A program made the translations under genes and the position numbers. A stretch of DNA of 42,079 nt from Caenibius sp. (GTDB taxonomy: Bacteria; Pseudomonadota; Alphaproteobacteria; Sphingomonadales; Sphingomonadaceae), in contig JAURML010000085.1 in assembly GCA_030830695.1 (NCBI GenBank), positions 1-42,079 of the forward strand. The letters run 5' to 3'. Within the stretch, counting starts at the first letter, position 1, and the number at the start of each line of letters is the position of its first letter. The notes beneath the pieces are model-generated. The model was not told the DNA's origin. It did not search any database and saw only the letters and a list, made by a program, of their open reading frames with translations. Below, in pieces: positions 2,671-25,521 of the stretch.

Positions 2671-3518
2671 TGCCTGTCCTCGCCATTGATCTGGGCGGGA
2701 CAAAGACGCTTGCCGCACTCGTGGACGGGGCCGATATCGTCTCGCGGCGCGAGGTTGCCACGGATCGGAACACCGGGCCCGCGGCATGGGTCGCGGGCAT
2801 GGCCGATCTGGCGCATGACTGGCACGGGCGGCACGACGGGATCGGCCTCACGGTGAGGGGGCTGGTCGCCCAGGGGCTGTGGCGGCCTCTCAATCCCAAG
2901 ACGCTGCCCTTGCCGGCGGAGGGGTTTCCCCTTGCCCGTGAGGCCGAGGCCGCCCTTGGCGGGCCGGCGGTCATCCGCAATGACGCGCAAGCCGCGGCTT
3001 GGGGAGAATATCTTCACGGTGCGGGGCAGGGGCGCGATATGGTCTTTCTGACCGTCTCGACCGGGATCGGAGCGGGCATCGTATTGAACGGCCAGCTGGT
3101 CGAGGGGCGGTTCGGGCTCGCGGGCCATGCGGGACAGATGGTCGCCCTGCCCGACGGGGACGATGCCCCCTTCGAAGACATGGCTTCGGGTCGCTGGATC
3201 GCCCGGAAGGCCGGTTGCCCTGATGCGCGCGCCGTCTTTGCCGGGGCTGACGATCCGGCTTGTGCCGAGGCGATCGAGACGTCGGCTCAGCGCGTTGCAC
3301 GGCTGTGCCGGAACCTGCAATTCCTTCTTGCGCCCGAGGTGATCGTGATCGGCGGCGGGATCGGGCTGGCGCCCGGTTACCTGCCGCGGGTGCGCGCGAT
3401 CCTCGCACCGCTTGATCCGATCCGGCACCCGGTGATCGAACCCGCGGCACTTGGTGGCGATGCCGGGGTCATCGGGATCGCGGCGCTTGCCGCCGCGCAG
3501 GCGCGGGCGGAGCATTGA
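2670..3518 (+). CDS. ROK-family sugar kinase (N-acetylmannosamine / N-acetylglucosamine kinase-like)
   Basis: A 282-residue ROK protein. The N-terminal phosphate-binding motif DLGGTKT is at residues 7-13, the catalytic aspartate lies in RNDAQAAAWGEY (D105), then comes the ATP-site STGIGAGIV, then GHAGQM (H153), and a C-terminal adenosine loop VIGGGIG. The CxCGxxGCxE zinc motif of classical NanK/Mlc proteins is absent, replaced by an acidic stretch (PDGDDAPFEDMASG). It has no N-terminal HTH, so it is an enzyme rather than a repressor. In a sialic-acid-type locus it would phosphorylate ManNAc, GlcNAc or a relative. No good ribosome site is visible; translation was probably coupled to the truncated gene before it. 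Confidence 0.85.
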   Translation: MPVLAIDLGGTKTLAALVDGADIVSRREVATDRNTGPAAWVAGMADLAHDWHGRHDGIGLTVRGLVAQGLWRPLNPKTLPLPAEGFPLAREAEAALGGPAVIRNDAQAAAWGEYLHGAGQGRDMVFLTVSTGIGAGIVLNGQLVEGRFGLAGHAGQMVALPDGDDAPFEDMASGRWIARKAGCPDARAVFAGADDPACAEAIETSAQRVARLCRNLQFLLAPEVIVIGGGIGLAPGYLPRVRAILAPLDPIRHPVIEPAALGGDAGVIGIAALAAAQARAEH

Positions 3519-9534: not shown

Positions 9535-10724
9535 GCGGGGCCTGCGCGGAACCGCTCGACCCCGTCGATATAGGTCGCGCGCACCGCGTGGGTAATCGGA
9601 TCGAGAACCGCGAAATCGGCCAGCTTGCCGGGCGCGATGCTGCCCATATCCGCCTCGCGCCCGATGACGCGGGCGGGGACAAGGCTGGTGGCATGACTGG
9701 TGCGGACCAGATCGGCCCCGCCAAGGGTCATGAAATTCCCCATCGCCTCGTCGGGTGTCAGCGACGATCCGCACAGGCCGCCGTTCTCGTCATGGACGGC
9801 ATTTCCCTTGACGCTGCGGACGCGGTAGCCGGGATAGAATTCGAACTCCATATCCTCGGCGCCCGCATATTTCATCGCGTCGGTTTCGAGGAAGACACGG
9901 GTGTCGGGCAATTGCGCCAAAAGCCGGATGAAGCCCGGATCGGTGTGAATGCCATCACAAATCAGCCCTACCGCGACATCGCGCTCTGCCAGCAGCGCAT
10001 CGGGCAGGGAATAGGGATGGATGCCCATCCCGCCATAGGGTTTTCGCGGCATGGCGTTGAAGATATGCGTCGCCGCGTCGATCCCCCACGACACATAGCG
10101 CGGCACGTCATGAGGCTCGGCGAAGGAATGGCCCAGATGGATCGAGACGCCATGCGCCTTGAGCCTTCGGATGAAATCCTCGGCGCCTGGGCGTTCGGGG
10201 GCAAGCGTCACGCCCAGAAGCATACCGTCCGCCGCCTCTAGCATTGCCTCGGCCAGCGGGATCGACGGGTCCACGATGTTCTCGGGGTTGTGTGCGCCGG
10301 GAACGGCGAAGCAGGGCCCCTCGCTGTGAACACCCAGAGCACGCGCGCCGGTCGCGCCCCGGCACTGGGCCGCCAGTTCGGCCAGAACCTCCATCATGCG
10401 CGGCGATTTGGTGCAGCCGAAGGAAGGCAGAAAGGCCGTGGCCCCGCACGACAGCAGGAATTGCGAGGCCTCGTCGACCGCGCCGGGTTCGGCATCGCCG
10501 TAAAGGTGGCGGAACATCCCGTGCTGAAGCAGGTCGATGATCCCGGGAAAAAGGACCGCGCCGTCCCCGTCGATCATCCGCCAGTCCGCGCTGCCGGGCT
10601 CGCCCCGATCGGCAAAGCCTGCGAAGCGGTCGCCCTCGATCATGACGTCTTTAGACAGGATGCCGCCCGGCGTTACGACCGAGACATTCGACCAGCGTTG
10701 ATTGACACTCATCGCAAAATCCAT
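9531..10724 (-). CDS. N-acetylglucosamine-6-phosphate deacetylase-like amidohydrolase (NagA family)
   Basis: A 397-residue amidohydrolase-superfamily protein. Visible NagA landmarks: FPGIIDLLQHG (the first metal motif is QHG instead of HxH, a substitution also tolerated in E. coli NagA), HSEGPCF (E135, metal), IHLGHS (H196/H199), THIFNAM (H220), DGIHTD (257-262) and the catalytic aspartate in ETDAMKYAG (D282), ending in the usual GKLADFAVLD strand. NagA removes acetate from GlcNAc-6-P. The start may be ATG 10724 (inside the operator) or ATG 10712 (MSVNQRW), which is 12 bp later and more plausible for transcription. It is translationally coupled to the downstream sialidase-fold gene. No nagB is in the window. 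Confidence 0.85.
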   Translation of the reverse strand: MDFAMSVNQRWSNVSVVTPGGILSKDVMIEGDRFAGFADRGEPGSADWRMIDGDGAVLFPGIIDLLQHGMFRHLYGDAEPGAVDEASQFLLSCGATAFLPSFGCTKSPRMMEVLAELAAQCRGATGARALGVHSEGPCFAVPGAHNPENIVDPSIPLAEAMLEAADGMLLGVTLAPERPGAEDFIRRLKAHGVSIHLGHSFAEPHDVPRYVSWGIDAATHIFNAMPRKPYGGMGIHPYSLPDALLAERDVAVGLICDGIHTDPGFIRLLAQLPDTRVFLETDAMKYAGAEDMEFEFYPGYRVRSVKGNAVHDENGGLCGSSLTPDEAMGNFMTLGGADLVRTSHATSLVPARVIGREADMGSIAPGKLADFAVLDPITHAVRATYIDGVERFRAGPA

Positions 10725-12563: not shown

Positions 12564-12962
12564 ATGCTGAAGATCGTCGACAAGGGGGCACGCTCCAATC
12601 TGCCGTTCAGCCCGGCCATCGTGGCCGGCGACCTCGTCTTTGTCTCGGGTCAGGCGTCGGTCGATCGCGAGGACGGCCACATCATCAACGGAACCTTCGA
12701 AGGAGAGATGCGCCGCTCGATCGAGAACATGGAGGTTATCCTTCGGGCCGAAGGGCTGAGCCTCGATCATGTGATCAACGTGCGGTGCTATCTTGGCAGC
12801 CCCGATGACGTGGCCGAACACAACCGCATCTATGCCGAGTATTTCTCCGAACCGCGCCCCACCCGCACGACCATCACCGGCGTGCTGGGCACCATGCTGA
12901 AATACGAGCTGGATTGCGTGGCCTATGCCCCGACCCGCAGGCAGGACGCGGCCCGCAGCTAG
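12564..12962 (+). CDS. RidA-family (YjgF/UK114) protein
   Basis: A 132-residue protein with the RidA chorismate-mutase-like fold: PFSPAIVAGDLVFVSGQ near the N-terminus, then MRRSIENMEVILRAEGLSLDHVINVRCYL, PRPTRTTITGVLGTMLKYELDCVAYA at the C-terminus. The arginine in PTRTT probably corresponds to the conserved catalytic Arg of imine deaminases. RidA hydrolyses reactive enamine/imine products of PLP enzymes, which fits the PLP deaminase-like gene encoded convergently next door. Start ATG 12564 has AAAGGG 8 nt upstream. Its TAG overlaps the stop of the minus-strand neighbour by 4 bp. Confidence 0.85.
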   Translation: MLKIVDKGARSNLPFSPAIVAGDLVFVSGQASVDREDGHIINGTFEGEMRRSIENMEVILRAEGLSLDHVINVRCYLGSPDDVAEHNRIYAEYFSEPRPTRTTITGVLGTMLKYELDCVAYAPTRRQDAARS

Positions 12963-14239
12963 AATTCGGTCAGCACACCGCTCGTCACGTCGTAGTCGTC
13001 GCTTACCACCGGCAGGAACCGCCATTTGTCAAAGGCGGTGCAGGGATGCGAGATGCCCGACCCGATCATGTCGCCCACCGCCCAGTCGCTGCCCTCGGGC
13101 AGCCTGACAAATGCGTGCTGGTCGTTCATGGCAAAGATCTCGGCATCTCCGACAGGGGCCGGGCCGGTGCCGGGGACGTGGCGCGCAAAGGGGACGGGCA
13201 GGCCCGCATCATAGGGGGCGTCGCGCTTGCCCATCGTCAGAAGGGCAAGGCCCAGTTCGGGGCGCGACTGTACATAGGCCCAGATTTCCAGCGCGGGTTT
13301 CAGCTGTGATTTCCAGCCCCGCGCGGGGTCTTTCCGCGCGGCCTCCTGCGCGGTGAAATACGCGCCGGAATCGTTGGTGACATAGCATCCGCTGCGCAGG
13401 ACGATCCGGACCGGGATCGGAAGTTTCAGGGTGGCGAAAGTGTCTGCCATGATGTCGAAATGGCCCGATCCGCCGCCCGTCAGGACGAGTTCCTCCAGCC
13501 CTTCGAGCAATGAGCCGGGCAGGGCCTGCGCGATATCGGTGACCATCTCCGCATAGTCCCGGACCGGCGCGTCACTGTCGGCGATACCGGGCACGACGCC
13601 TTCGAAGGCCGCGACACCGCCAAAGCGGATGTGGCGCATGTCGGCGGCGGCGATCGCATGGGCCAGCGCCTGCGCTTCGGCCCGTGTCCGAACACCCGTC
13701 CGGCCACCGGCGACGCCCACCTCCAACAGGACGCGGATCGGCCGGGGGGGCGGGTCGGCGGCAAGGTGCCGGGCCACGATGTCCAGCTGTGCGATCGAAT
13801 CGACAAAGCAATAGAAGTCGAGCGCCGGTGCCTCGCGCAGCATCGCCACGACGCCCGCCACGGCCGCGCGGCCGATCAGCTGGTTGGCCATGATGATGCG
13901 GTCCACGCCGTGATGTTGCATGACGCGCGCCTGCTGCACCGTGGCCGCCGTGATCCCCCATGCGCCGGACTTGAGCTGTTCGTCGAAGATCTGCGGTGAC
14001 ATCGTCGTCTTGCCATGCGGCGCAAGCGACAGGTCGTTGGCCGCGAGATACTCTTCGAAGACGCGGGCATTGTGATCGAGGTTCGACCGGCGGAGCAGCA
14101 TCAGAGGCAGGGGCATGTCCTCGGCCATGACATTCCAGCCCTGCGCCGCGATATCGCCAAGCCGGAACGGCGCTGCATTGGCCGGAATGCCCTTGGTCCG
14201 TCCGTCGAGGATCGTGTCTGACAGCGCCGCGATATCCAC
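12959..14239 (-). CDS. Fold-type III PLP enzyme, D-serine dehydratase / amino acid deaminase-like
   Basis: A 426-residue alanine-racemase-like barrel. PLP lysine is in APHGKTTMSPQ (K77). Other signature pieces are LVLTGGGSGHFD (phosphate binding) and the zinc motif SHPCTAFDKW (H398, C400) typical of the DSD1 / D-threonine aldolase family. Known members convert D-serine or D-threonine-type amino acids to keto acids or cleave beta-hydroxy amino acids, both producing enamines or aldehydes. It begins with GTG 14239, overlapping the upstream stop by one base (TAGTG). Last gene of a six-gene leftward operon beginning at 18600. Its presence suggests that an amino-acid-like moiety is part of the substrate. 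Confidence 0.82.
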   Translation of the reverse strand: MDIAALSDTILDGRTKGIPANAAPFRLGDIAAQGWNVMAEDMPLPLMLLRRSNLDHNARVFEEYLAANDLSLAPHGKTTMSPQIFDEQLKSGAWGITAATVQQARVMQHHGVDRIIMANQLIGRAAVAGVVAMLREAPALDFYCFVDSIAQLDIVARHLAADPPPRPIRVLLEVGVAGGRTGVRTRAEAQALAHAIAAADMRHIRFGGVAAFEGVVPGIADSDAPVRDYAEMVTDIAQALPGSLLEGLEELVLTGGGSGHFDIMADTFATLKLPIPVRIVLRSGCYVTNDSGAYFTAQEAARKDPARGWKSQLKPALEIWAYVQSRPELGLALLTMGKRDAPYDAGLPVPFARHVPGTGPAPVGDAEIFAMNDQHAFVRLPEGSDWAVGDMIGSGISHPCTAFDKWRFLPVVSDDYDVTSGVLTEF

Positions 14240-15045
14240 TAGAGATCCCCGAAAGCGGCCATTGCGGCGTCGGCGTAATTGACCAGCGCGATCACGTCGG
14301 CACCCACGTTGAGGAAGTTGTAGCCCATATCAGCATAGCTCTGGATATTGGCCTGCGAACAGACGGTGGCCGCGATCTTGCAGTTCTTGCGCGCGACGGT
14401 GGCGACCCGTTCGCGAACGGCCTGCACGTCGGGATGGTCGATCTGCCCCGGAATGCCCAGTGCGACCGAGTAATCCCCCGGCCCGAAGAACAGGCAATCG
14501 ACGCCGTCGATCTCGGCGATGGCTTCGAGGTCATCCAGCGCCTCCGGGTCCTCGATCTGGTGGCAGACGAAACGCTCGGCATTGGCCTGCGTCATGTAGT
14601 CCAGCAGGCCCACCCGGGTGAAGCCCGCATCGGCGTTGCCGCCATCGACCGCGCGACGGCCGAGCGGCGCGAATTTCGTGTAATCGCGCACCGTCGTGGC
14701 GTCGGCCGCACTCATCACATGGGGCACGATCAGCCCCGTCGCATCGAGTTCCAACCCGCGGATATAATCGCTGTAGCTGCCCCGCGCGACGCGCAGGACG
14801 GTATCCACGTCATGGATGCGGGCCGCGCGGATCTGGTGTTCGATATCCGACCAGCTGGCGCCCACATGCTCCATGCAGAGCCAGATCGCGTCGGGCTGGG
14901 CGCTGGCAAAGATTTCGGCAACCTTGGGGTCGGCCGTGTTGAGTTTCAGGACGCGGGCCACCTTGCCCTCGCGGATGCGCCGCAAGACGCGGCTGGGCCG
15001 CAGGGCAGGGGCACCGGAAGAGGTGGCGGCATAGGGGTCGGCCAT
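14239..15045 (-). CDS. HpcH/HpaI-family (class II pyruvate-type) aldolase
   Basis: A 268-residue TIM-barrel protein. Recognisable: DAIWLCMEHVGASW, VLRVARGSYSDYIRGLELDATGLIVPHV, then CHQIEDPEALDDLEAIAEIDGVDCLFFGPGDYSVALG, matching the Q-E...FFGPGD.S motif of HpcH/HpaI aldolases that bind a divalent metal and cleave 2-keto-3-deoxy acids to pyruvate plus an aldehyde. Start ATG 15045 has AAGGA 8 nt upstream. It follows the SDR gene by 15 bp. A second pyruvate-type aldolase in the same regulon (24592) is of the NAL/DHDPS type, so the pathway may have two cleavage steps or two branches. Confidence 0.85.
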   Translation of the reverse strand: MADPYAATSSGAPALRPSRVLRRIREGKVARVLKLNTADPKVAEIFASAQPDAIWLCMEHVGASWSDIEHQIRAARIHDVDTVLRVARGSYSDYIRGLELDATGLIVPHVMSAADATTVRDYTKFAPLGRRAVDGGNADAGFTRVGLLDYMTQANAERFVCHQIEDPEALDDLEAIAEIDGVDCLFFGPGDYSVALGIPGQIDHPDVQAVRERVATVARKNCKIAATVCSQANIQSYADMGYNFLNVGADVIALVNYADAAMAAFGDL

Positions 15046-15060
15046 CGGAAAAATCCTTGC

Positions 15061-15849
15061 TTATTTGGCGGTATAGCCGCCGTCGACGGGGATATTCGCG
15101 CCGGTGATGTAGACCGACGCGTCGGAGGCCAGAAAGACGATGATGCCCTTGAGGTCCGTCGCATTGGCCATCCGGCCAAGTTGCGTGCGCTGCGAATAGG
15201 CGGCGACAAAGGGCGCGGGCTGGCCGGTGAAAAAGCCGCCGGGCGCCACGCAATTGACCCGGATGCCATGCGGGCCTAGGATGCTGGCTGCCCAGCGGGA
15301 GAAATTCTGCATCCCGCCCTTTTCATAGAAGTACAGGGGGGAGGGATTGTCGTGCATGTTGGTGCCCGCGTAATTCGCAGGCTCCACCCCCACGGTGCCC
15401 ATCATCGAGCCGATATTGATGATCGAGCCCACGCCTCGGGTTTTCATGTCTTCGGAAAAGAGGTGGGTGAGGTAGAACAGGGCCGAGGCATTGATCCGCA
15501 GCGCCGTGTCATAGGCATCCATCGGGCCGCCCCAGAGGGCCTCGGGGTTTCGCGTGACGGCATTGTTGACGAGGATATCGCAGCCTCCCGTCTCATCTGC
15601 GAAGCGCGCGTGCAGCGCGTCGATCGACGCCTGGTCCACCAGATCGAGCGGCAGGGCGCGGACATCGTAACCTCTGCCCAGCTCCTCGGCGGCGACAGCC
15701 TCCAGCGCCTCGATCCCGCGCGAGGCGATGAAGGTCGTGGCCCCTGCTTCGGCAAGTGCGGCGACGATCTGCCGGCCGTAAAGACCGGCGCCGCCCGTCA
15801 CCAGCGCGACCTTGCCGGAGAGCGAAAGGGTGTCCATCACGTTGCTCAT
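15061..15849 (-). CDS. SDR-family oxidoreductase
   Basis: A 262-residue SDR with TGGAGLYG (residues 18-25), DILVNNAV, catalytic serine in NIGSMMG, YFYEKGG (YxxxK), RVNCVAPGGFFTG and a C-terminal YITGANIPVDGGYTAK. The long insertion between Ser and Tyr (VGVEPANYAGTNMHDNPSPL) is like that of the neighbouring SDR at 16808 (which has PDPANYPGDMPPNPVDYG), suggesting these two are paralogues with related substrates. It starts in an ATGA overlap with the upstream dehydrogenase. SDR families with this NNAV...GG pattern include gluconate/keto-sugar reductases, but the substrate cannot be named. Confidence 0.85.
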   Translation of the reverse strand: MSNVMDTLSLSGKVALVTGGAGLYGRQIVAALAEAGATTFIASRGIEALEAVAAEELGRGYDVRALPLDLVDQASIDALHARFADETGGCDILVNNAVTRNPEALWGGPMDAYDTALRINASALFYLTHLFSEDMKTRGVGSIINIGSMMGTVGVEPANYAGTNMHDNPSPLYFYEKGGMQNFSRWAASILGPHGIRVNCVAPGGFFTGQPAPFVAAYSQRTQLGRMANATDLKGIIVFLASDASVYITGANIPVDGGYTAK

Positions 15850-16814
15850 TGGGTGACCTCGATTTCATTGATGTGGATGACCTTGCCGCCCTGTTCGCGG
15901 CTTTCGATCCCGCAGATGACCAGTTTCATCAATTCCTGCGTCTCGGGCCACGGAACGGGTGGCGTGCCCGTGCGCAGCCATGACACGACCCCTTCGAGCT
16001 GTGTCTTGAAGGCGTGGTAGGTGTCCTGCGAGCGCAGCTGAACGCCGCCCTGCGTGCCCGCGATCGTCAGGAAGCCGGCGCCGCCGATCTGGTCCTTGAT
16101 CACCGAGATCGTCACGTCGATCCCGTAGCGGTGTGTCAGATGCACGATGTTGCGTTCGGCGGTGCCGGTATTGCGGATCGTCTCGAACCCCGGGCCGGTG
16201 ATCGGCAGGATCGTCTCGAGCGCGTGGATTCCGTAGGTTTCCCACTTCTTGGCCATCGTCATGTTGATATGCCGAAGCGCGCCGAATTCGTGGGTCCGCC
16301 GGTGATAGGGCGCGAATTCCTTGGCATAGCGCATGGCCGAACTGCTGAGGATCGGATGCCCCGCCGTGACCCAATCGGAAAACTGAGCCAGATCGGCGCG
16401 GTTGTCACACAGCGGCTTGTCGATGAAGACGGGGAGGCCTGCCTCGACAAAGGGCCGGGCGCGGTCCACGTGCTGGTGGCCGATATCGGTGGCGATCAGC
16501 ACGGCGTCGACCTCTCCGATCACGTCCTCGGCCCGTCCGGCGATGTTGGGAATATGGGCGACGGCGGCGACCTGAACCGCATCGGCGGGATCGTCGGTCC
16601 AGACATGGGTGACTTGGGCCCCCGCGATCCCCAGTGTCTCGGGCGGTTGTTTGGCGATGTAGTCGCGGATCACGGCATAGGGACAGCGGGCCAGCGCGTC
16701 GGCGTCATAAGAGCCATTGACGATGATGCTCCATGAATAGGGATGGCCGTTGCCTTCGGTCATGCCCAGCATGGCGAGTTTCATGGGGCGATCGCCCAGG
16801 GGAAAGGTCACCAT
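15846..16814 (-). CDS. Gfo/Idh/MocA-family sugar dehydrogenase, divergent
   Basis: A 322-residue protein. The N-terminal Rossmann part is atypical (KLAMLGMTEGNGHPYSW rather than GxGxxG). DAVLIATDIGHQHVDRA and FIDKPLCDN (the EKP motif as DKP) show the family. The start ATG 16814 follows GGAGG with 9-nt spacing, better supported than the internal ATG 16784. It lies between two SDR genes with overlaps at both ends (7 bp and 4 bp). Together with the dehydrogenase at 17584 it may perform oxidation then re-reduction at neighbouring positions of one sugar, a logic known from other paired Gfo/Idh/MocA systems; that is inference. Confidence 0.78.
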   Translation of the reverse strand: MVTFPLGDRPMKLAMLGMTEGNGHPYSWSIIVNGSYDADALARCPYAVIRDYIAKQPPETLGIAGAQVTHVWTDDPADAVQVAAVAHIPNIAGRAEDVIGEVDAVLIATDIGHQHVDRARPFVEAGLPVFIDKPLCDNRADLAQFSDWVTAGHPILSSSAMRYAKEFAPYHRRTHEFGALRHINMTMAKKWETYGIHALETILPITGPGFETIRNTGTAERNIVHLTHRYGIDVTISVIKDQIGGAGFLTIAGTQGGVQLRSQDTYHAFKTQLEGVVSWLRTGTPPVPWPETQELMKLVICGIESREQGGKVIHINEIEVTQ

Positions 16815-17587
16815 GCTGTCCAGCCTCCGTCGACGCCAAGGATCTGACCGGTGATGTAGCTGGCCGCTTCCGACAGAAGAAACACCACCGCGCCCGCGGT
16901 TTCATGGCGCCGCCCCATACGACCCATCATCGTGTCGCGGGTCAGGTTGGCGATGAATTCGGGGTGCACGTCCTGCACGGCCTGCGGCGGAAAGGGGCCC
17001 GGCGTGATCGCGTTCACGCGGATGCCTCTGCGCCCGAAATGACCGGCCACGTAGCGCGCCATCTGGCTGATCCCGGCCTTGCCCGCCCCGTAATCCACCG
17101 GGTTGGGCGGCATGTCGCCGGGATAATTCGCGGGATCGGGAGCCACGGTGCCATACATCGACGAATAGAACACCATTGCGCCCCCCTCGGTCATCTTTGA
17201 CGCCGCGGCCCGGGCAAGCACGAAGGTGCCCGTCAGGTTGATCCGGTTCGAGCGGTCGTATTCCTCGGCGGTCAGCTTGTCGAAATGGGTATTGCTCGAC
17301 CCGGCGGTAGCCATGACCAGCCCGTGGAGCGTCCCGCAGCTGTCGACACAGGCCAGGATCGAGCTCTCGTCGGCCATGTCGACGTGGCACGTCGTGACCT
17401 CTCCCGCGCCGGGCTGCCCGGCAAGCGTCGCCTGCGCCTCGGCCAGCCGGCCCGGATGGTGATCGCCGATCACGACCGACGCGCCCTGCGCACGCAACGC
17501 CTCGCAGACCGGAAGGCCCAGATAGCCCGCCCCGCCCACGATCAGGACGGTCTTGCCGTCCATGGAAAAAAGGTTTTGCACAATCAC
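16808..17587 (-). CDS. SDR-family oxidoreductase
   Basis: A 259-residue SDR. GTG start at 17587 in a GTGA overlap with the preceding stop. VGGAGYLG replaces the classical TGxxxGxG. CHVDMAD marks the adenine-binding D; FYSSMYG has the catalytic serine; YGAGKAG gives YxxxK; RVNAITPGPFP and YITGQILGVDGGWTAW close the fold. It is most like the SDR at 15061 in its Ser-Tyr insertion. Third of the six leftward genes. Substrate unknown. Confidence 0.83.
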   Translation of the reverse strand: MIVQNLFSMDGKTVLIVGGAGYLGLPVCEALRAQGASVVIGDHHPGRLAEAQATLAGQPGAGEVTTCHVDMADESSILACVDSCGTLHGLVMATAGSSNTHFDKLTAEEYDRSNRINLTGTFVLARAAASKMTEGGAMVFYSSMYGTVAPDPANYPGDMPPNPVDYGAGKAGISQMARYVAGHFGRRGIRVNAITPGPFPPQAVQDVHPEFIANLTRDTMMGRMGRRHETAGAVVFLLSEAASYITGQILGVDGGWTAW

Positions 17588-18600
17588 TCCAATTCGATGA
17601 ACCGCCGCTCGATCCAGGATCGTTTCGCGGCGAGGGCGAGACCGAGGTTGACCCTTGCGTCCTGTAGCGTGGCCAGCGGATCGGCTAGGCCGTCGAGCGC
17701 GTCAAGCATGGCCTCTGCCTGCAAGGTGAAACGCGCCTGATGGGCCTCCATCGGGACCATGCCTTCCATGAAGTCGCGCGATTCCGACCAATGACCGTTG
17801 TCGTCATCGGCAAAGCTGAGCCGGGCGTGATCGAGTTTCAGATTGCCCTTCGTGCCGATGAATTCGGCATTGGCCACGTTGCGTTTCTGGAACTGGTTGA
17901 TCGTCAGGTTGGCCATCGCGCCGCTTTCGAACCGGATCGAGACGAGGCAGGTATCCTCCGTTTCGGTCCCTTCGAGGGCGAGCCTGTCATACATCGCACC
18001 CACGGTGACGGGCCGCCCCATGATCGAGATCAGCATATCGAAACTGTGGCTGGCCGCATCGAGGATCGCGCCGCCGCCCATCTCGGGGCGGGCATAATAG
18101 GTGCGCTGGAAATCAGGCCGGTACTTCGGGAATTCCTGCGAGGAATTCAGATAGGCCAGCTTGAGCGTGCCGATCTTGCCCTCGTCGATCTGCTTGCGCA
18201 GGTTGATGATCTCGGGCGCGATGCGCCGGATATATCCGACCCGGGCCAGAAGGTTCGCCCTCTCGACCTCGGCGATGACCTCGTCGACCCCGTCCTCGGT
18301 CACGGCAAGGGGTTTCTCGACCAGAAACGGCAGCCCCGCCTCGGCGCAGGCCCGCATGAGCGGGACGTGATGGTTGGCGGGCGCACAGATCACCGCAAGA
18401 TCGTGGGCGGCGGGGTCCGCCTCGGCCAGATCGGCGCATGCGGCCTCGGGGGCGAACTCGGAAACGATTGCATCCCGCTTGGCGCTGTCGGGCTCGAGAA
18501 TCGTCAGGCGGGCGCGACCGGTCTGGCGGTAGCCGATGATATGGCGCCGTCCGATCCCTCCGGCCCCGATGATCAGGACGCTGCGCATTTGAGAAGTCAT
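17584..18600 (-). CDS. Gfo/Idh/MocA-family dehydrogenase
   Basis: A 338-residue protein starting ATG 18600 (MTSQMRSVLIIGAGGIGRRH) with GGGGGA just upstream; further upstream in-frame ATG 18693 lies in the operator region and is rejected. The Rossmann motif GAGGIG is near residue 11, with FLVEKPLAVTEDG (the EKP motif) about residue 94. The C-terminal domain shows GGGAILDAASHSFDMLISIMG with the family H and D. It is NAD(P)-dependent oxidation/reduction of a sugar or inositol-type hydroxyl. First gene of the leftward operon that starts under operator C. Confidence 0.85.
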   Translation of the reverse strand: MTSQMRSVLIIGAGGIGRRHIIGYRQTGRARLTILEPDSAKRDAIVSEFAPEAACADLAEADPAAHDLAVICAPANHHVPLMRACAEAGLPFLVEKPLAVTEDGVDEVIAEVERANLLARVGYIRRIAPEIINLRKQIDEGKIGTLKLAYLNSSQEFPKYRPDFQRTYYARPEMGGGAILDAASHSFDMLISIMGRPVTVGAMYDRLALEGTETEDTCLVSIRFESGAMANLTINQFQKRNVANAEFIGTKGNLKLDHARLSFADDDNGHWSESRDFMEGMVPMEAHQARFTLQAEAMLDALDGLADPLATLQDARVNLGLALAAKRSWIERRFIELE

Positions 18601-18671
18601 CTGTCCCCCGGTATGGCCTGCGCGGCTGTGAAGGCCGGGCTCTGACCGGCATTTCGGCGGGTACAAGAGCC

Positions 18672-18710
18672 TTGACTCAGCGCAAAATGCCATGTTGTTA
18701 TGTTAATAGG
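18672..18710 (+). promoter_or_regulatory. Operator-like site C with rightward promoter elements
   Basis: CCATGTTG-TTATGT-TAATAGG (18690-18710) matches the site B core at 18 of 21 positions. TTGACT (18672-18677) and TTGTTA (18695-18700) are 17 bp apart and would drive the ABC transporter operon, with the operator overlapping the -10. It lies in the 325-bp gap between divergent operons. The rest of the gap (18711-18914) shows no gene or clear structure beyond GC-rich sequence. Confidence 0.65.
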
Positions 18711-18925
18711 ATATCTTCGCCTGTCAACGCTGCCGCAAGGCGCATCGGCGAGGGCCTTGCCCGGGGGAGCGCGTGTCCGGTCCCGGAGGGTCTCGGGATG
18801 GTCGATTGCATCGGCGCGACCGGGAAAAGCCTGCAATTCCGGGCATCGAAGACCCGGCAACTCTAGGCGTGAAGATCGGCTCTGGCCGGCTTGCCGATAA
18901 TGACGAACGACAACAGGGGATTGGA

Positions 18926-18961
18926 ATGAACAAACTTCTCACAATGAACAAACTTCTCACA
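18926..18961 (+). repeat. Tandem 18-bp duplication covering the start codon of the solute-binding protein
   Basis: Two adjacent identical copies of an 18-bp unit beginning ATGAACAAACTT encode MNKLLT twice. The first ATG (18926) has AGGGGA with 5-nt spacing; the second (18944) would have no site. The copy lengthens the signal peptide n-region by six residues and adds a second Lys. Confidence 0.9.
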
Positions 18962-20563
18962 ACGTCCGCCGCAGCCTTGATCGCGGTCTGCGGAACGGCC
19001 GGGGCCTGGGCCCAGTCTATCAACGAAAGCGAACTGTCCGACCCGCGCGTCCGTCAGGCGATCGCCTATGCAATCGACATGGAAACGATCGCCGAGACGC
19101 TGTTCGAAGGCGCGGCGATCCCGGCGGTCGGCCTCACTTCGGACCCGGCCAATTATCCCAAAGGGATGAACACCTATTCCTACAACCCCGAACGTGCGCG
19201 CGAACTTCTGGCCGAGGCCGGATGGGACGGCAGCCGCACGCTCGACATGGTCTACTATTACCCCGATCAGCTGACCGCCGATTTCATGGCGGTTGTGCAG
19301 GCCCAGCTTGCCGATGTGGGCATCGACATGACCTATCGCCTGCTTGAAGGCGATGTGGGCGCGCAGATCACCGGCCGTCCGGACGATCCGGTCAATGGCC
19401 CCTCGGTTGTCGAATGGGACATGCTCTACGGTGCCCGCGCGGCCATCGCGAACCAGGAATACTTCAACCGCTTTGCCGAAGGGCAGATGCCGATGATCCC
19501 GACGGTGGAAGAGATGCTTCCGCTTGTGGAACAGGTCAACGGCACGGTCGACCCGGCCGTGCAGCGCGCCGGCTATCAGCAGATGGAAGGCATCATCAAC
19601 GAGAATGTCTACATCCTGCCGCTCTATTACCAGCAGCTCTACATCTTCGAGAGTGACCGGATCAGCCGCAACGGGGCGCCCTACGGAAACGAGCAGTACA
19701 GCTACAATTCCGATGTCATCAACTGGACGGTCGAGCCCAACGAGGATGGCGAGCGCGTGGCCTATACCAACGCCGCGCCGATGCAGTTCTTCGAATTGCC
19801 CTGGCAGAACCTCGGTATCTGGGTGCACAGCCGCTATGCCTTTGACACCATTCTCGAAGCCGACGGATCGCTTACGCCGATCGGTGGCGAACTGGCCGAA
19901 AGCTACGAGGTCAGCGAAGATGGCCTGACCCTGAGCTTTACCATGAAGGAAGGGCTCAAGTGGCATGACGGATCGGACCTTACGGCGGAAGACGTCGTCT
20001 GGAGCATCGAGACCGCCGCTCTTGCGCCGATCGTTCAGCCGCTTGTCGCGACGACAATCGGAAGTATCGAAGGCGCCGATGCCTACAAGGCCGGAGAGGC
20101 CGACAGCATCAGCGGCATTTCCGTCGATGGCCGCACGGTCACGTTGACCTTCGCGACGATCGACCCGAACATGCTGATGTCGTTCGCGCAATTCGCGCCG
20201 CTTCCGAAAGCCTATCTCGAAGGCGTCGATCCGCTGCAAATCCAGCAGCACGAGTTCTGGCAGAAGCCCGTTGGCTCGGGTCCCTTCATGATCGAAGAGG
20301 CCCGGATGAACGAGTTCACCACGCTGGTGCCGTTCCCCGATTACCACCGGGGCGTTGCCAAGATCGACCGGATCATCGCGCTGCCCTCCGCTGACGGGGA
20401 TGCCAACCTGATCCGCAACGCGGCGGCCTTCCGTGCCGATTTCGGCTATACCAAGAACGCCACGGATGTGCCTGCTCTCGAAGAGATGGAGCACATGAAC
20501 GTGACCGCGGTGAACATCCCCTATACCCGGATGTTCTGGATCAACCAGTTCCCGCGCGAGTGA
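18926..20563 (+). CDS. ABC transporter solute-binding protein (family 5, peptide/sialate type), apparently circularly permuted
   Basis: 545 residues. Signal peptide 1-29, cleavage likely AWA/Q. The mature protein opens with SDPRVRQAIAYAIDMETIAETL (38-59), Y-NPERARELLAEAGW (86-100), VVQAQLADVGIDMTYRL (123-139), WDML (164-167) and INENVYILPLYYQQLYIF (224-241). In ordinary SBP_bac_5 proteins this is the C-terminal half. After a linker at about 245-278 come WVHSRYAFDTIL (299-310), LAESYEVSEDGLTLSF (from 323), GLKWHDGSDLTAEDVVWS, PVGSGPF and a C-terminal MFWINQFPRE, normally the N-terminal half, ending just where SDPRVRQA would follow. The frame is intact and heads the transporter operon, so the reordered protein is probably functional. 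Family 5 proteins carry peptides, nickel and, in SatABCD-type systems, sialic acid. Confidence 0.85.
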   Translation: MNKLLTMNKLLTTSAAALIAVCGTAGAWAQSINESELSDPRVRQAIAYAIDMETIAETLFEGAAIPAVGLTSDPANYPKGMNTYSYNPERARELLAEAGWDGSRTLDMVYYYPDQLTADFMAVVQAQLADVGIDMTYRLLEGDVGAQITGRPDDPVNGPSVVEWDMLYGARAAIANQEYFNRFAEGQMPMIPTVEEMLPLVEQVNGTVDPAVQRAGYQQMEGIINENVYILPLYYQQLYIFESDRISRNGAPYGNEQYSYNSDVINWTVEPNEDGERVAYTNAAPMQFFELPWQNLGIWVHSRYAFDTILEADGSLTPIGGELAESYEVSEDGLTLSFTMKEGLKWHDGSDLTAEDVVWSIETAALAPIVQPLVATTIGSIEGADAYKAGEADSISGISVDGRTVTLTFATIDPNMLMSFAQFAPLPKAYLEGVDPLQIQQHEFWQKPVGSGPFMIEEARMNEFTTLVPFPDYHRGVAKIDRIIALPSADGDANLIRNAAAFRADFGYTKNATDVPALEEMEHMNVTAVNIPYTRMFWINQFPRE

Positions 20564-20590: not shown

Positions 20591-20618
20591 GGGGGAGCGT
20601 CCGGAAGGCTGCTCCCCC
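20591..20618 (+). terminator. Intergenic hairpin after the solute-binding protein gene
   Basis: GGGGGAGC (20591-20598) pairs with GCTCCCCC (20611-20618) around a 12-nt loop, followed by only TTTC. Such hairpins behind the binding-protein gene commonly attenuate transcription or protect the 5' mRNA so that the binding protein is made in excess over the permeases. It is probably not a full terminator, since the permease genes follow directly. Confidence 0.55.
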
Positions 20619-20649: not shown

Positions 20650-21612
20650 ATGCTCACATATTTCGCGCGCAGATTGCTGACCCTGATCCCGATGGTGATC
20701 GTGATCAGCTTTCTGATCTACCTCGGGCTCGAGCTGACGCCGGGCGATGCCGTTTCTCACATGGTGCCGCCCGACGCGCTGAGCATGATGGACGAAGAGC
20801 GTCTTCAGGCGCTCAGGGAAAGCCTCGGATTGGGCAAGCCGTTCATCGTGCGCTACTGGATCTGGATCACTGGCGTGATGCAGGGCGAATTCGGATACAG
20901 CCTTGCCGGCGGTGTGCCGATCTCGAAAATCTTTCTCGACCGGCTGCCCGCGACGCTGGAACTCTCTTTCGCGGCGCTGCTGATCTCGACCGTTCTGGGC
21001 AGCATCCTCGGCACGATCAGCGCGCTGACGCGCGGCAGCCTCACCGACCAGAGCCTGACGGTCGTGGGCATGCTGGGCGTGTCGATCCCCGAATTCTTCT
21101 TTGGCCTTGTCGCGATCCTCGTCTTCGCCCTTAACCTGAACTGGTTTCCGGTGGGGGGGCGTATCCTGCCCGGCTATGACAGTTTCTGGGACAGGCTTCC
21201 GCATCTGGTCATGCCCGCGATGGTGCTGTCGATCATGATGACGGCGGGCGTCATGCGTTATGCCCGCTCCTCGATGCTCGATGCGCTGAGCCGCGATTTC
21301 ATCCGCACCGCCCGGTCCAAGGGCATGCCGGAATGGCGGGTCAATATCCTGCACGGGTTTCGTGTTGCGTTGACGCCGGTGATCGTTCTGATCGGGTTCC
21401 GGCTTCCGGTTCTGATCGGCGGTTCGGTGATCATCGAACAGGTGTTCCAGTGGCCCGGCATCGGCAAGGAATTCGTCTCGGCGGTGCGCAGTCAGGATTA
21501 TCCGCTAGTCATGATGGTTGCGCTCTTCTCGGTTCTGGCCGTTCTGATCGCGAGCCTCATCGTCGATCTCCTGACCGCGATCATCGATCCGCGCGTCCGG
21601 CTGGGCGAATAG
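20650..21612 (+). CDS. ABC transporter permease, DppB type
   Basis: A 320-residue inner-membrane protein with six predicted membrane segments. It begins MLTYFARRLLTLIPMVIVIS, typical of DppB/OppB. Then comes the long periplasmic segment (TPGDAV...LGLGKPFIVRYWIW...GEFGYSL), and later the EAA loop RSSMLDALSRDFIRTARSKG that contacts the ATPases. End: DLLTAIIDPRVRLGE. It follows the binding-protein gene by 86 bp containing a hairpin, and precedes the DppC-type gene by 4 bp. Confidence 0.92.
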   Translation: MLTYFARRLLTLIPMVIVISFLIYLGLELTPGDAVSHMVPPDALSMMDEERLQALRESLGLGKPFIVRYWIWITGVMQGEFGYSLAGGVPISKIFLDRLPATLELSFAALLISTVLGSILGTISALTRGSLTDQSLTVVGMLGVSIPEFFFGLVAILVFALNLNWFPVGGRILPGYDSFWDRLPHLVMPAMVLSIMMTAGVMRYARSSMLDALSRDFIRTARSKGMPEWRVNILHGFRVALTPVIVLIGFRLPVLIGGSVIIEQVFQWPGIGKEFVSAVRSQDYPLVMMVALFSVLAVLIASLIVDLLTAIIDPRVRLGE

Positions 21613-21616
21613 CGCC

Positions 21617-22552
21617 ATGACGGATGCCAATGCCACACGCCCCAGAACGCGGCGCGATGCCCAGTTCGACAAGATCCGCGACCGCGAGGCGGCGCTGGCC
21701 GGAACCAGGCAGCGCACCGGCCGGTTCATGTCGAAGTTTCTCAACAACCGTCTGGCGGTCATGGGCTTCGTGATCTTCGCCGTGATCTGCCTGATGAGCC
21801 TTTTCGCGCCGCTGATCGCGCAGCATGACCCGATGTCGCCCAACCTGCGCGCCATCGCAAAGCCGCCCTCGGCCGAGCATTGGTTCGGCACCGACAAGAC
21901 AGGCCGCGACGTCTTTGCCCGGGTCCTTTACGGGGGGCGGATCTCGATCCTCGTGGGGCTGGGAAGTGCGCTTCTGTCGGCCATCATCGGCGTCATCATC
22001 GGTGTGTATTCCGGCTATGTTGGTGGCTGGCTCGACTGGATCGCGATGCGGATCTCGGAAATCTTCATGTCGTTTCCGCAGATCATTCTCGTCTTGCTGC
22101 TGGTGGCGATCCTCGGGCAATCCCTGCTGAACCTGATCGTGATCTTCACGTTGACGGGCTGGGGCGGCATCTACCGGATGGCGCGCGCGCGGATGCTGTC
22201 GATCCGCGAAGAGGAGTACGTGCAGGCACTGCGCAGCTTTGGCCTCGGGCCCGCGCGGATCGCCTATAAACACATGCTGCCCAATGCGCTTGGGCCGATC
22301 ATGGTCAACATCACCCTGTCGACGGCGGCCTTCATCCTTCAGGAGGCGGGGTTGAGCTTTCTGGGCCTTGGCGTCCCGCTGTCGATCCCGACCTGGGGCA
22401 ACATCCTGAACGCGGCGCAGGATCTGCGCGTGCTCGAGCAGAACTGGTGGATCTGGCTTCCTGTGGGGGCCACGATCTCGCTGTTCGTGCTGAGCGTGAA
22501 TTTCATCGGAGACGGGCTGCGCGATGCGACCGACCCGTCCCAGCAGGGGTAG
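21617..22552 (+). CDS. ABC transporter permease, DppC type
   Basis: A 311-residue inner-membrane protein with the DppC/OppC arrangement: a cytoplasmic N-terminal stretch, first helix NRLAVMGFVIFAVICLMSLF, then HWFGTDKTGRDVFARVLYGG, five further helices, the EAA loop YRMARARMLSIREEEYVQAL with GLGPARIAYKHMLPN, and the late LSFLGLGVP. It ends GDGLRDATDPSQQG. It forms the heterodimeric pore with the DppB-type neighbour. Confidence 0.92.
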   Translation: MTDANATRPRTRRDAQFDKIRDREAALAGTRQRTGRFMSKFLNNRLAVMGFVIFAVICLMSLFAPLIAQHDPMSPNLRAIAKPPSAEHWFGTDKTGRDVFARVLYGGRISILVGLGSALLSAIIGVIIGVYSGYVGGWLDWIAMRISEIFMSFPQIILVLLLVAILGQSLLNLIVIFTLTGWGGIYRMARARMLSIREEEYVQALRSFGLGPARIAYKHMLPNALGPIMVNITLSTAAFILQEAGLSFLGLGVPLSIPTWGNILNAAQDLRVLEQNWWIWLPVGATISLFVLSVNFIGDGLRDATDPSQQG

Positions 22553-22557
22553 GGGCG

Positions 22558-23568
22558 ATGGCAAACGACGTCGCCCTCACCGTCAAGGCGCTCAAGACCT
22601 ACATCTACACCAACAACCGCTGCAACCGCGCGCTTGACGGTGTGTCGTTCGAGATCCGGCAGGGCAAGACCCTGTGCATCGTGGGCGAAAGCGGCTGCGG
22701 CAAAAGCGTGACGGCCGCCTCGATCATGCAGCTTTTGCCGACGCTGAGCCGGATCGAGGAGGGAGAGATCACCTATCACGGCCCGGACGGGCCTGTCCGG
22801 ATCGACCAGCTGCCGCGCGATGGCGCAAAGATGCGCGCCATCCGGGGCAAGGAAATCGCGATGATCTTTCAGGATCCGATGACGGCGCTCAACCCCGTCT
22901 ATTCGATCGGGTTCCAGATCAAGGAAATGCTGAAATACCACACCGGCCTTGGCCGGTCGGACAGGCATTCCAAGGCCATCGATCTTCTGCGGTCGATGGG
23001 CATTCCGCTGCCCAAAAAACGGGTCAACGAATATCCGCATCTCTATTCGGGCGGGATGCGGCAGCGGGCGATGATTGCCATCGGTATGTCGTGCAACCCC
23101 CGCATCCTGATCGCGGACGAGCCGACGACCGCGCTCGACGTGACGATTCAGGCCCAGATCTTCGAGTTGATGGATACGCTCAAGCGTGACCACGGCACCG
23201 CGATCATGCTGATCACCCATGACATGGGCGTGGTGGCCGAACTGGCCGATGACGTGGCCGTCATGTACATGGGCAACATCGTCGAGGCCGGTCCGGTGGG
23301 CAAGGTCCTGCGCAACCCGGTGCATCCCTATACCCGCGCGCTTCTGGATTCGATCCCGGTTCTGGGCCGGGGCAAGGATCAGGAGATCAAGGCCATTCCG
23401 GGCCAGACCCCCGATCCCTACAACCGGCCCAAGGGCTGCCAGTTCGCCGACCGCTGCGCCTATCGGATCGGGGCCTGCGACCAGATGCCGGACGAGATGC
23501 AGGTCGCCCCCGATCATCGCGTGACGTGCTGGCGCTACGAGGAGTTTGCGGCCGATGCAGCCGAATGA
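22558..23568 (+). CDS. ABC transporter ATP-binding protein, DppD type
   Basis: A 336-residue ATPase starting at ATG 22558, 5 bp after the permease stop. Walker A GESGCGKS (43-50), Q-loop IFQDPMTALNPV, signature YSGGMRQR, Walker B RILIADEPTTALDVT and H-loop MLITHDMG. The C-terminal oligopeptide-transporter extension carries the cysteine-rich segment GCQFADRCAYRIGACDQM (C-x6-C-x6-C type), which binds an iron-sulfur cluster in related proteins. It pairs with the DppF-type ATPase, with a 14-bp overlap at its 3' end. Confidence 0.93.
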   Translation: MANDVALTVKALKTYIYTNNRCNRALDGVSFEIRQGKTLCIVGESGCGKSVTAASIMQLLPTLSRIEEGEITYHGPDGPVRIDQLPRDGAKMRAIRGKEIAMIFQDPMTALNPVYSIGFQIKEMLKYHTGLGRSDRHSKAIDLLRSMGIPLPKKRVNEYPHLYSGGMRQRAMIAIGMSCNPRILIADEPTTALDVTIQAQIFELMDTLKRDHGTAIMLITHDMGVVAELADDVAVMYMGNIVEAGPVGKVLRNPVHPYTRALLDSIPVLGRGKDQEIKAIPGQTPDPYNRPKGCQFADRCAYRIGACDQMPDEMQVAPDHRVTCWRYEEFAADAAE

Positions 23569-24565
23569 CCCGATCCTGAAGCTGCGAGACGTGCAGGTGC
23601 ATTTCCCGGTGAAGACGGGTGTCTTCAAACGGGTGACGGGCCATGTCCGCGCGGTCGACGGCGTCGACCTCGATGTGCGGCGCGGTGAGGTTCTGGGCCT
23701 TGTCGGTGAAAGCGGTTGCGGCAAGACGACGCTCGGCAAGGCGATCCTGCAACTCGTCCGGGCGACGCAAGGCACCGTCACCTATTCGGGCGAGGACGGC
23801 GAGACCGAGCTTACCTCGCTCGATGACGCAGGGCTGTTTCGCTTCCGCAAACGGCTTCAGATCGTGTTTCAGGATCCCCATTCCTCGCTGAACCCGGCGT
23901 TCACCATCTTTGGCTCGCTCGAGGATCCGCTCCGCCACTACGGGGTCAAGACAAGGGAGGAACGCCGCAAGATCGTGGGCGACCTGCTCGAGGCCGTGAA
24001 CATGCGCCGCGAGTCGATGGATCGCTATCCGCATGAGTTTTCGGGCGGACAGAGGCAGCGGATCGGCATTGCCCGCGCGCTCAGCATCGAGCCCGAACTC
24101 ATCGTCTGCGACGAGGCCGTGAGCGCGCTCGACGTGTCGATCCAGGCGCAGGTGCTTCAGCTTCTGATGGCGCTGAAACGCGAAAAGAACCTGACCTATG
24201 TCTTCATCACCCACGATCTGAGCGTGACCGAATATCTCTGCGACCGGATCGCGGTGATGTATCTGGGCAAGATCGTCGAGCTGTGCGACGCCGAGGATCT
24301 TTATGCCAACACGCTGCACCCCTATTCCGAGGCGCTCCTCTCGGCCATTCCCGTGGCCGATCTCGACAAGAAGTCACGCCGGATTGTGCTCCAGGGCGAT
24401 GTGCCAAGCCCGGTGAACCCGCCGTCGGGCTGCCCGTTCCACCCGCGCTGCCGCTATGCCGTGGATCGCTGCAAGACCGAGGTGCCCGAGTTGCGCCGAT
24501 TCAAGTCGGCCAAGGGCGAACACATGGCCGCCTGCCACCTGATCGATCAACCACTGGCGGAGTAA
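23555..24565 (+). CDS. ABC transporter ATP-binding protein, DppF type
   Basis: A 336-residue ATPase. ATG 23555 has GAGGAG 10 nt upstream inside the previous gene; a TTG at 23546 is less likely. Walker A GESGCGKT (51-58), IVFQDPHSSLNPA, signature FSGGQRQR, Walker B LIVCDEAVSALDVS (a DEAVSALD form usual in DppF/OppF), H-loop FITHDLS. The C-terminal cysteine cluster is GCPFHPRCRYAVDRCKTE. With the DppD-type protein it energises the transporter. Confidence 0.93.
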   Translation: MQPNDPILKLRDVQVHFPVKTGVFKRVTGHVRAVDGVDLDVRRGEVLGLVGESGCGKTTLGKAILQLVRATQGTVTYSGEDGETELTSLDDAGLFRFRKRLQIVFQDPHSSLNPAFTIFGSLEDPLRHYGVKTREERRKIVGDLLEAVNMRRESMDRYPHEFSGGQRQRIGIARALSIEPELIVCDEAVSALDVSIQAQVLQLLMALKREKNLTYVFITHDLSVTEYLCDRIAVMYLGKIVELCDAEDLYANTLHPYSEALLSAIPVADLDKKSRRIVLQGDVPSPVNPPSGCPFHPRCRYAVDRCKTEVPELRRFKSAKGEHMAACHLIDQPLAE

Positions 24566-24591
24566 CCGCCCAGAACCGAAAGCCCATAGAT

Positions 24592-25521
24592 ATGGCAAAA
24601 TATGCGATCCACGATTTCAAGGGCGTGATCCCCGCCCTTGTCACGCCGTTCGACCTTGATGGCAGCCTGAACGAAGGGCTGCTGCGGGGCATCACCGCGT
24701 CGCTGGTGGCGCGCGGCGTCGATGGTCTTTACCTGACCGGCTCCACCGGCGAAGGCTTCATGATGAGCCCCGAGGAACGGATGCGCGCGGTCGAAACCGT
24801 CTGCACAGAGGTCGCGGGCCGCATTCCCGTCATGGTCCATGTGGGCGCGATCAGCACCTACCAGACCGTCGCGCTCGCCCGTCAGGCCGAGGCTGCGGGC
24901 GCCGATGCCATCTCGTCGGTGCCGCCGATCTACTGGCCCTTCACGCCCGATCAGGTCGCCAATTACTACGCTGACGTGACGGCCTCCACCTCGTTGCCGA
25001 TGGTCGTCTACAAGATTGCGCTCGCGGGCGAGATCGGGTTCGAGCTTCTGGCCCGGCTGGCCGCCATGCCGGGGATCGAAGGGGTCAAATACACCGCCCC
25101 CACCCATTTCGAGATCGGCCGCATCAAGGCCGAGATCGGCCCCGATTTCCGGGTCTTTTCCGGCGCCGACGAAATGGCGATGTCGGGGCTGGCCTTCGGG
25201 GCCGATGGCTTGATCGGGTCGTTCTACAACATCATCCCCGAGCTTTATGCCGATATCGTCGCGGCCATGGCCGAAGGCCGGATCGCGGATGCCAAGGCGT
25301 TGCAGGACAAGGCCAACGCGATCATCTTCTTCACGCTCAAGCAATATCCGATGTCGGCGGTCAAGCGGATCATGGCGTGGCAGGGTGCCGATGCCGGCTA
25401 TTGCCGCAAGCCGTTCGACAATTACGAGACGCCCGAGGCGGAAGCCGCGCTCAAGGACGCCTACCGCGCCTTCCGCGACGCGCATGGCCTCGCCGAAACC
25501 GGGTTTCTGCCCGACCTTTAG
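24592..25521 (+). CDS. N-acetylneuraminate lyase-like aldolase (DHDPS/NAL family)
   Basis: 309 residues. The class I aldolase barrel shows GSTGEGF (50-56, the pyruvate carboxylate loop; NAL usually has GSTGE, DHDPS GTTGE), the tyrosine of VVYKI (Y140), Schiff-base lysine in GVKYTAP (K166), then FSGADEMAMSGLAFGADGLIGSFYNIIPELY and a late YCRKPF, both strongly like bacterial sialic acid lyases. NAL cleaves Neu5Ac or a relative to pyruvate and an N-acyl mannosamine. It is the last gene of the transporter operon, so transport and cleavage are co-regulated. In E. coli NanA the residue after the catalytic Tyr is N; here K, so substrate preference may differ. Confidence 0.82.
   Translation: MAKYAIHDFKGVIPALVTPFDLDGSLNEGLLRGITASLVARGVDGLYLTGSTGEGFMMSPEERMRAVETVCTEVAGRIPVMVHVGAISTYQTVALARQAEAAGADAISSVPPIYWPFTPDQVANYYADVTASTSLPMVVYKIALAGEIGFELLARLAAMPGIEGVKYTAPTHFEIGRIKAEIGPDFRVFSGADEMAMSGLAFGADGLIGSFYNIIPELYADIVAAMAEGRIADAKALQDKANAIIFFTLKQYPMSAVKRIMAWQGADAGYCRKPFDNYETPEAEAALKDAYRAFRDAHGLAETGFLPDL

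Follow-up and report, generated by a model that had tools for sequence, protein, structure and literature searches.

The open reading frame at positions 18926-20563 (plus strand) of the 42,079-nucleotide stretch of DNA that we analysed (hereafter the window) encodes both halves of an SBP_bac_5 (cluster C) solute-binding protein in swapped order. We put at roughly 80% the probability that its product is a working, natural permutant of cluster C, opened near the first inter-lobe hinge and likely trapping sialic acid for the adjacent importer. As the preliminary description had stated, the frame is intact: it runs uninterrupted from ATG to TGA and contains 545 codons plus the stop. PF00496 is the only Pfam family found in the 545-residue protein, and its score of 207.5 bits over the whole protein (cut-off 32.4) is divided between two stretches, the better of which places model positions 4-208 at residues 321-541. 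A six-frame search with PF00496 found model positions 212-326 at 19031-19351 (85.7 bits), upstream of the match to model positions 4-208 at 19886-20548 (123.5 bits). With individual scores of 123.5 and 85.7 bits for the halves, the reversed order is far from chance. The reversal was seen again when phmmer was used against PDB sequences; for example, residues 61-218 of 5isu correspond to query residues 322-492, and residues 264-375 to query residues 31-139. (The best 60 of the 96 PDB matches are named peptide-, nickel-, heme- and similar binding proteins, which we take to be members of cluster C.) Thus, the proposal that the two halves are reversed, made originally from the letters alone, is borne out at the level of both the protein and the DNA; a single co-linear match to PF00496 was looked for as the contrary outcome and was not seen in the natural protein. 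Since homology to PF00496 is present but the halves are not collinear, we class the protein as a permuted variant rather than as a plain member of SBP_bac_5. The collinear order of SBP_bac_5 / cluster C proteins is absent from the natural protein and appears only after rotation.

For this rotation, residues 275-545 were placed ahead of residues 32-274 in silico. The rotated protein matches PF00496 in one stretch, covering model positions 4-326 with 218.4 bits, as compared to 207.5 bits in two stretches for the natural order. (Note that the rotated match ends at model position 326 of 368, and that the end of the lobe II segment resembles canonical proteins weakly.) When compared to PDB sequences, the rotated protein gives single-stretch matches to 5isu, 8upi, 1uqw, and 1dpp. 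We also used hhalign to compare both forms with an alignment of six canonical rows (A3), four of which come from nan-type operons or near relatives; the natural order aligned over 201 columns (E 6.4e-29) and the rotated order over 411 columns (E 7.8e-50). Moreover, four rotated permutants and six canonical proteins were aligned end to end by MAFFT. Rotation therefore yields one collinear match to Pfam, to PDB sequences, and to canonical relatives.

The natural protein begins with a putative signal peptide (residues 1-29, 18926-19012, plus strand), with cleavage placed between AWA and Q. We assigned it by eye from the sequence and from an alignment of 13 permutants, in which the cleavage place reads AQ in 12 and AM in one. 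Either M1 or M7 could be the start codon, since the first six codons of the gene are duplicated by an 18-bp perfect tandem repeat at 18926-18961. The residues that this repeat adds are missing from the other 12 aligned permutants, and the true start may be at 18944. (A 543-residue open frame lies antisense to the permuted gene at 18863-20494, minus strand; it is likely a by-product of high G+C content and codon use, and no gene.)

The mature protein starts with SINESELSDPRVRQA, which in a profile alignment falls on NVQKKPLDDVKVRQA of DppA, at residues ~270-284. According to the paper on YejA (PMC10924461), lobe 1 of that protein comprises residues 1-286 and 540-579 and lobe 2 residues 287-539, with hinges at 282-287 and 540-542. 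The same source describes the N- and C-termini of other oligopeptide-binding proteins as close to each other, in agreement with the earlier premise that both termini lie in one domain of this fold. From the position of the mature start on DppA and the positions of the YejA hinges, we infer a cut close to the first inter-lobe hinge. With the cut there and the old termini joined by few residues, one inter-lobe crossing should remain, and not two.

The layout would thus consist of lobe II (residues ~33-236), a single crossing, and lobe I (residues ~237-545), all on the plus strand. The lobe II segment (19022-19633), normally mid-protein and here N-terminal, carries the match to model positions 212-326 and aligns to 262-496 of the DppA chain 1dpp through a profile (A4) that includes canonical proteins too, the lobe borders of the permuted protein being putative. 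It would be followed by the retained crossing together with the old C-terminal part of lobe I (residues ~237-270, 19634-19735), as judged from alignments with canonical relatives and 1dpp; by a linker from the old C-terminus to the old N-terminus (residues ~271-276, PNEDGE, 19736-19753); and by the old N-terminal part of lobe I (residues ~277-545, 19754-20560), which contains the match to model positions 4-208 at residues 321-541, is here C-terminal, and stops near the cut hinge. The linker was placed using the alignment of 13 permutants, four of which were rotated and aligned with six canonical proteins. A linker had been proposed at residues 245-278; one is present but shorter, with the old C-terminus ending at residue ~270 and the old N-terminus beginning at residue ~277. 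In the MAFFT alignment the window form and its near relatives have ~6 new residues here (PNEDGE) and the second permutant lineage, described below, has fewer.

The residues at the cut are placed differently by the two alignment programs. MAFFT agrees with the suggestion that, in an unpermuted relative, SDPRVRQA would come exactly after the present C-terminal residue; hhalign does not, as it leaves 18 canonical columns unmatched there and puts WINQFPRE elsewhere. Hinge-like residues occur at both ends of the mature chain, WINQFPRE at the C-terminus and SINESELSDP at the N-terminus, with a small overlap between them; this overlap is what an origin by duplication would leave, and is suggestive only. 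The 229-residue chain of PDB entry 3o6p is matched over residues 5-228, which hints that lobe II is able to fold alone. (The fold of cluster C has two lobes plus an extra subdomain; an AlphaFold model of the permuted protein, made from an alignment of seven close sequences, was poor, with a pLDDT of 37.5. Attempts to deepen the alignment with viral contigs returned no relatives in one search and one partial locus in another.)

We found the reversed order in other genomes. A scan of assembled contigs, which detects close relatives only, identified six loci whose products are 80-99% identical to the window protein and collinear with it along its length; these belong to Alexandriicola marinus, an Acidobacteria-labelled contig, two Roseicyclus MAGs, Oceanicola granulosus, and Flavimaricola marinus. 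Searching 385 genomes of the class for the permease, we came upon a further binding protein, in genome G579, that is also permuted and 52.5% identical to the window protein. Within the order of G579, 26 of 162 genomes gave a match, 24 of them full length at 50-54% identity and two partial, and these 24 genomes represent a second, small-genome alphaproteobacterial permutant lineage. When the order of the halves was compared between loci, 36 rows were permuted, corresponding to 31 distinct genes (that of the window, the six, and the 24), 28 rows had the canonical order, and 23 rows had one half matched; the compared loci were picked by similarity to genes of the window, and the proportions are thus no base rate.

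The permuted genes are under purifying selection. In seven permutant pairs dN/dS was 0.06-0.21 over the mature protein, 0.04-0.21 over the lobe II part, and 0.08-0.24 over the lobe I part, and over the junction segment it was 0.06-0.23 in six of the pairs, the seventh pair having identical segments (several of the dS values lie above 1 and should be taken as rough). Conservation of coding across the junction bears on the possibility that the reversed order is an artefact of assembly or binning, that is, a false join of two genes or copies. The window is a whole contig of a fragmented MAG (200 contigs) and is probably mis-binned, as such an artefact would have it, but 30 loci from other assemblies show the reversed order over the full gene, and these include the Oceanicola, Flavimaricola, and Alexandriicola isolates. 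We therefore reject an artefact as the source of the reversed order and give it next to no credence; the doubt that an assembly join had created the gene, raised in the preliminary description, is removed by these homologues. The origin of the contig itself is a separate matter.

The window is contig C39 of a 2.53-Mb MAG. Its tetranucleotide composition correlates at 0.98-0.99 with L035 and L036, two contigs that carry close relatives of the permuted gene, and at 0.91-0.94 with seven further MAG contigs; those seven correlate at 0.92-0.98 with two among them, L107 and L109. The longest match of a piece of another MAG contig in the Alexandriicola genome was 1.1 kb at 71%. For a stretch of a third MAG contig (rsmG, parA, parB), the plasmid records that ranked highest were those of Sphingopyxis and Sphingomonas, at 68-71%. 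Judging from these contrasts in composition and matches, the MAG is sphingomonad-like and the window, a Roseobacter-type contig close to Alexandriicola, was probably mis-binned into it; alternatively, a recent horizontal transfer would account for the contrasts. (The contig L036, assigned to an uncultured Acidobacteria MAG, also carries the cluster, with a binding protein 97% identical to that of the window, and is probably another binning error.)

Searches with the window protein in samples of relatives (59 genomes, its own included), family (397), phylum (398), and order (166) returned no other full-length collinear match, at a sensitivity that a strongly diverged permutant would escape. The weaker matches in these four samples were partial, and none was in permuted order among those whose locus was compared. 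Because the window is probably mis-binned, the samples of its own family and order say little about the true relatives of the permutant. Among plasmid records 2108 had a match, none with a best place of at least 60% identity, and the single match that covers 80% of the query is in canonical order. In 298 genomes of the family the permease of the window was found at E 1e-70 as its own copy only. As a control, PF00496 in 115 genomes of the class gave solely near-complete single matches among the top-scoring matches listed, which provides no base rate of reversal.

A tree of 57 rows groups the 13 permutants in a single clade (SH-aLRT 100) that neighbours six canonical proteins from Deinococcus and rhizobia-like genomes (SH-aLRT 87). 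Separate trees for each half place both beside the same canonical nan-operon clade (SH-aLRT 79 and 84), and the sister relation between the permutants and this clade has no more than moderate support, at 79-87 across trees. The simplest reading is one permutation of one gene, and its origin through gene duplication followed by loss of the outer halves would fit. We considered instead that the protein might be a chimera, with lobe II and lobe I from different binding-protein genes fused in a new order. The best matches of the halves do differ, residues 292-485 finding theirs in G1188 (36%) and residues 38-242 in G1179 (36%), and in AU tests an alternative placement with the G1188-like group was kept for either half (lobe I part, p 0.198; lobe II part, p 0.208). 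However, both half trees point, if weakly, to the same canonical clade, and the old termini are joined by few new residues, as expected from the closing of one chain. A chimera of two paralogues is thus disfavoured, and we consider it improbable when compared to the permutation of a single gene.

Three canonical nan-operon proteins from Deinococcus and Rhizobium (L047, L048, and L049) lie inside the sister clade. Their neighbours are like those of the permutant in that they include two permeases and a NanA-like protein, along with NanE and ROK in Deinococcus, but these proteins have the usual order of halves and are 26-31% identical to the window protein over the lobe I part and 34-43% over the best lobe II stretch. 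Unpermuted relatives next to related permease genes, which the preliminary description had put forward as worth looking for, are to be found in Deinococcus and Rhizobium.

Downstream of the permuted gene on the plus strand are genes for an OppB-like permease of the Opp/Dpp type (20650-21612; 279 and 277 bits with the NCBIfam models Opp2B and Opp4B, both below cut-offs), an OppC-like permease (21617-22552; Opp4C, 347.3 bits, cut-off 350), an OppD-like ABC ATPase (22558-23568, with a predicted start), and an OppF-like ABC ATPase (23546-24565), the ATPases being assigned from NCBIfam and synteny. The gene thus has the Opp/Dpp-type permease and ATPase neighbourhood of SBP_bac_5 / cluster C. These are followed by a gene for an N-acetylneuraminate-lyase-like, that is NanA-like, aldolase (24583-25521, plus strand; PF00701, 236.8 bits; NCBIfam N-acetylneuraminate lyase, 247 bits, cut-off 281). 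A divergent enzyme cluster, assigned with Pfam, occupies 12959-18693 on the minus strand and comprises genes for a D-threonine-aldolase-like protein, an HpcH/HpaI aldolase, an SDR, a GFO/IDH/MocA protein, a second SDR, and a second GFO/IDH/MocA protein. The transporter genes and the divergent enzyme genes are in the same order in five of the six relatives, and the sixth (L035) is cut by a contig end. (A G+C-rich hairpin with an 8-bp perfect stem lies at 20591-20618, between the gene for the binding protein and that for the first permease, and is possibly an attenuator favouring expression of the binding protein.)

The neighbourhood speaks to the idea that the permutant is real but has a role other than transport, for instance sensing on behalf of a regulator or of the divergent enzymes. 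In favour of this, the stem branch of the permutants is long (1.58 in the whole tree); in the half trees it measures 2.34 for lobe I and 1.26 for lobe II. Nevertheless, the permutant is directly upstream of both permeases and both ATPases in the ten examined loci that have enough flank (the window, L036-L040, L050, and L097-L099), and the signal peptide, as judged by eye, has been kept. We therefore think such a role very improbable and favour a binding protein that serves the adjacent importer.

The likeliest ligand, judging by the neighbouring genes, would be sialic acid or a close nonulosonate. In addition to the NanA-like aldolase, the left part of the window encodes a ROK kinase closest to N-acetylmannosamine kinase (2670-3518, plus strand; PF00480; NCBIfam, 203.7 bits, cut-off 283), a sialidase-like BNR-repeat protein (5122-6210, plus strand; PF13088, 51.4 bits; NCBIfam gave no match), and a NagA-like deacetylase (9531-10724, minus strand; NCBIfam nagA, 178.9 bits, cut-off 225.65); these NanK-, BNR/sialidase-, and NagA-like genes are largely conserved in Roseicyclus and Flavimaricola. 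The NanA-, NanK-, and NagA-like proteins of the window all score under the NCBIfam cut-offs. In the second lineage, the operon in L050 continues with genes for NanA (285.7 bits, cut-off 281), NanE (277.8 bits, cut-off 189), and a NanK-like ROK kinase (213.1 bits, under the cut-off of 283), and in three further long stretches from this lineage the ATPases are each time followed by a NanA relative, but NanE turned up in one and NanK in none. NanE was not found in the window or its MAG. It is encoded in the genomes of all six relatives searched; it is near the permutant in G579, G1304, and G1305 (in the last two on the same contig, ~15-16 kb off) and on a different contig in Oceanicola (G1303). 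Moreover, the nearest canonical relatives in Deinococcus adjoin genes for NanE, ROK, and N-acetylneuraminate epimerase. It is from the NanA-, NanK-, and NagA-like neighbours, and from NanE in the relatives, that we propose sialic acid or a close nonulosonate.

The textbook nan pathway does not include SDR, GFO, or HpcH/HpaI genes such as those of the divergent cluster, and a real permutant might bind another ligand, either a peptide or a sugar acid used by the aldolase and dehydrogenase genes. The lyase-like protein under the NanA cut-off, the absence of NanE and NanK beside NanA in most of the second-lineage stretches examined, and best NCBIfam models for the transporter that are oligopeptide and nickel models are all consistent with this. 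Nonetheless, the two permutant lineages and the canonical clade nearest to them all have nan-type neighbours, and we consider another ligand unlikely, though the least so of the alternatives, and retain sialic acid or a close nonulosonate. SatA of SatABCD (PDB 5z99), the sialic-acid binding protein of an ABC importer according to PMC10017367 and PMC11364026, is a sequence relative of the window protein (phmmer E 2.7e-12), but it has the usual order of halves and is less similar to the window protein than are Lmo0135 (5isu) and YliB (1uqw); among the PDB sequences it ranked below many other chains.

We envisage that in the ancestor of one alphaproteobacterial gene family a break close to the first hinge would have opened the chain, and that its former N- and C-termini, expected neighbours in lobe I, would have been joined with almost no added residues. 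In the resulting protein, which would be secreted and fold into two lobes, the signal peptide would lead directly into lobe II, and the chain would cross once to lobe I and end at the cut hinge. Sialic acid or a close nonulosonate would be trapped between the lobes by a flytrap motion and, upon docking, passed to the adjacent OppBCDF-type ABC importer, and the NanA-like lyase and further nan-type enzymes would then degrade it. Of the broader proposal that these proteins form a new topological subclass of cluster C in two alphaproteobacterial lineages, whose unbroken lobes, joined by a single strand, close differently on sialic acid and whose end overlap is a remnant of tandem duplication, we are evenly divided.

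In other protein families, circular permutation in nature is well documented. Among the binding proteins of ABC importers we found one published natural permutant in the open-access literature, TpMglB-2 (Tp0684), which is of another fold class; according to its description (PMC4990184) it is a natural, conserved permutant of a Type I binding protein that binds glucose and changes shape, and for which the authors propose a class 'Type Ic / Cluster Bc'. No natural permutant of cluster C was found in our searches of this open-access literature. The preliminary impression that natural permutants had not been described thus stands for cluster C but not for binding proteins overall. Both the window protein and TpMglB-2 are two-lobed binding proteins of ABC importers that were circularly permuted in nature and conserved in that form. 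By sequence, it does not have the Type I (cluster B) fold of the Type Ic permutants, PF00496 being its only Pfam family. The permutation of TpMglB-2 adds a fourth inter-lobe crossing, whereas in the window protein one of two should be lost; and proteins of the TpMglB-2 type are lipoproteins or anchored and occur in spirochaetes and Gram-positives, whereas the window protein would be soluble and periplasmic. DppA (1dpp) and YejA are (PMC12136057 and PMC10924461) cluster C binding proteins of ABC importers as well, but have the usual order of halves and two inter-lobe crossings.

It would seem that evolution has produced a functional cluster C flytrap whose lobes are linked by a single crossing of the chain. 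Given the position of the cut close to the hinge, one can ask directly if closing, ligand affinity, and docking require two crossings, and the canonical sister clade and rotated versions of the natural permutant are partners for the comparison. Permutants of this kind also pose a problem for annotation, in that profile searches score their halves separately. The cluster is moreover a candidate for an undescribed sialic-acid uptake system in Alphaproteobacteria, some of them marine, judging by their names.

Several further features of the cluster were observed. NanE adjoins the ROK kinase in the relatives L095 and L101 (the two are one ORF in L100). In its place, positions 1-2670 of the window contain a bactofilin match (minus strand, ~2331-2612), a tRNA-Met, and an IS110-type transposase; the sequence near 2.6 kb must have been deleted, rearranged, or joined in assembly. 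The cluster also encodes, at 6207-8435, an MFS transporter that carries HEAT repeats as a C-terminal fusion and is kept in L100 and L101. Finally, an M81 (MlrC-like) metallopeptidase is encoded beside the permutant in both lineages, at 3600-5135 of the window and at 393-1877 of L050, and the two proteins are 54% identical.
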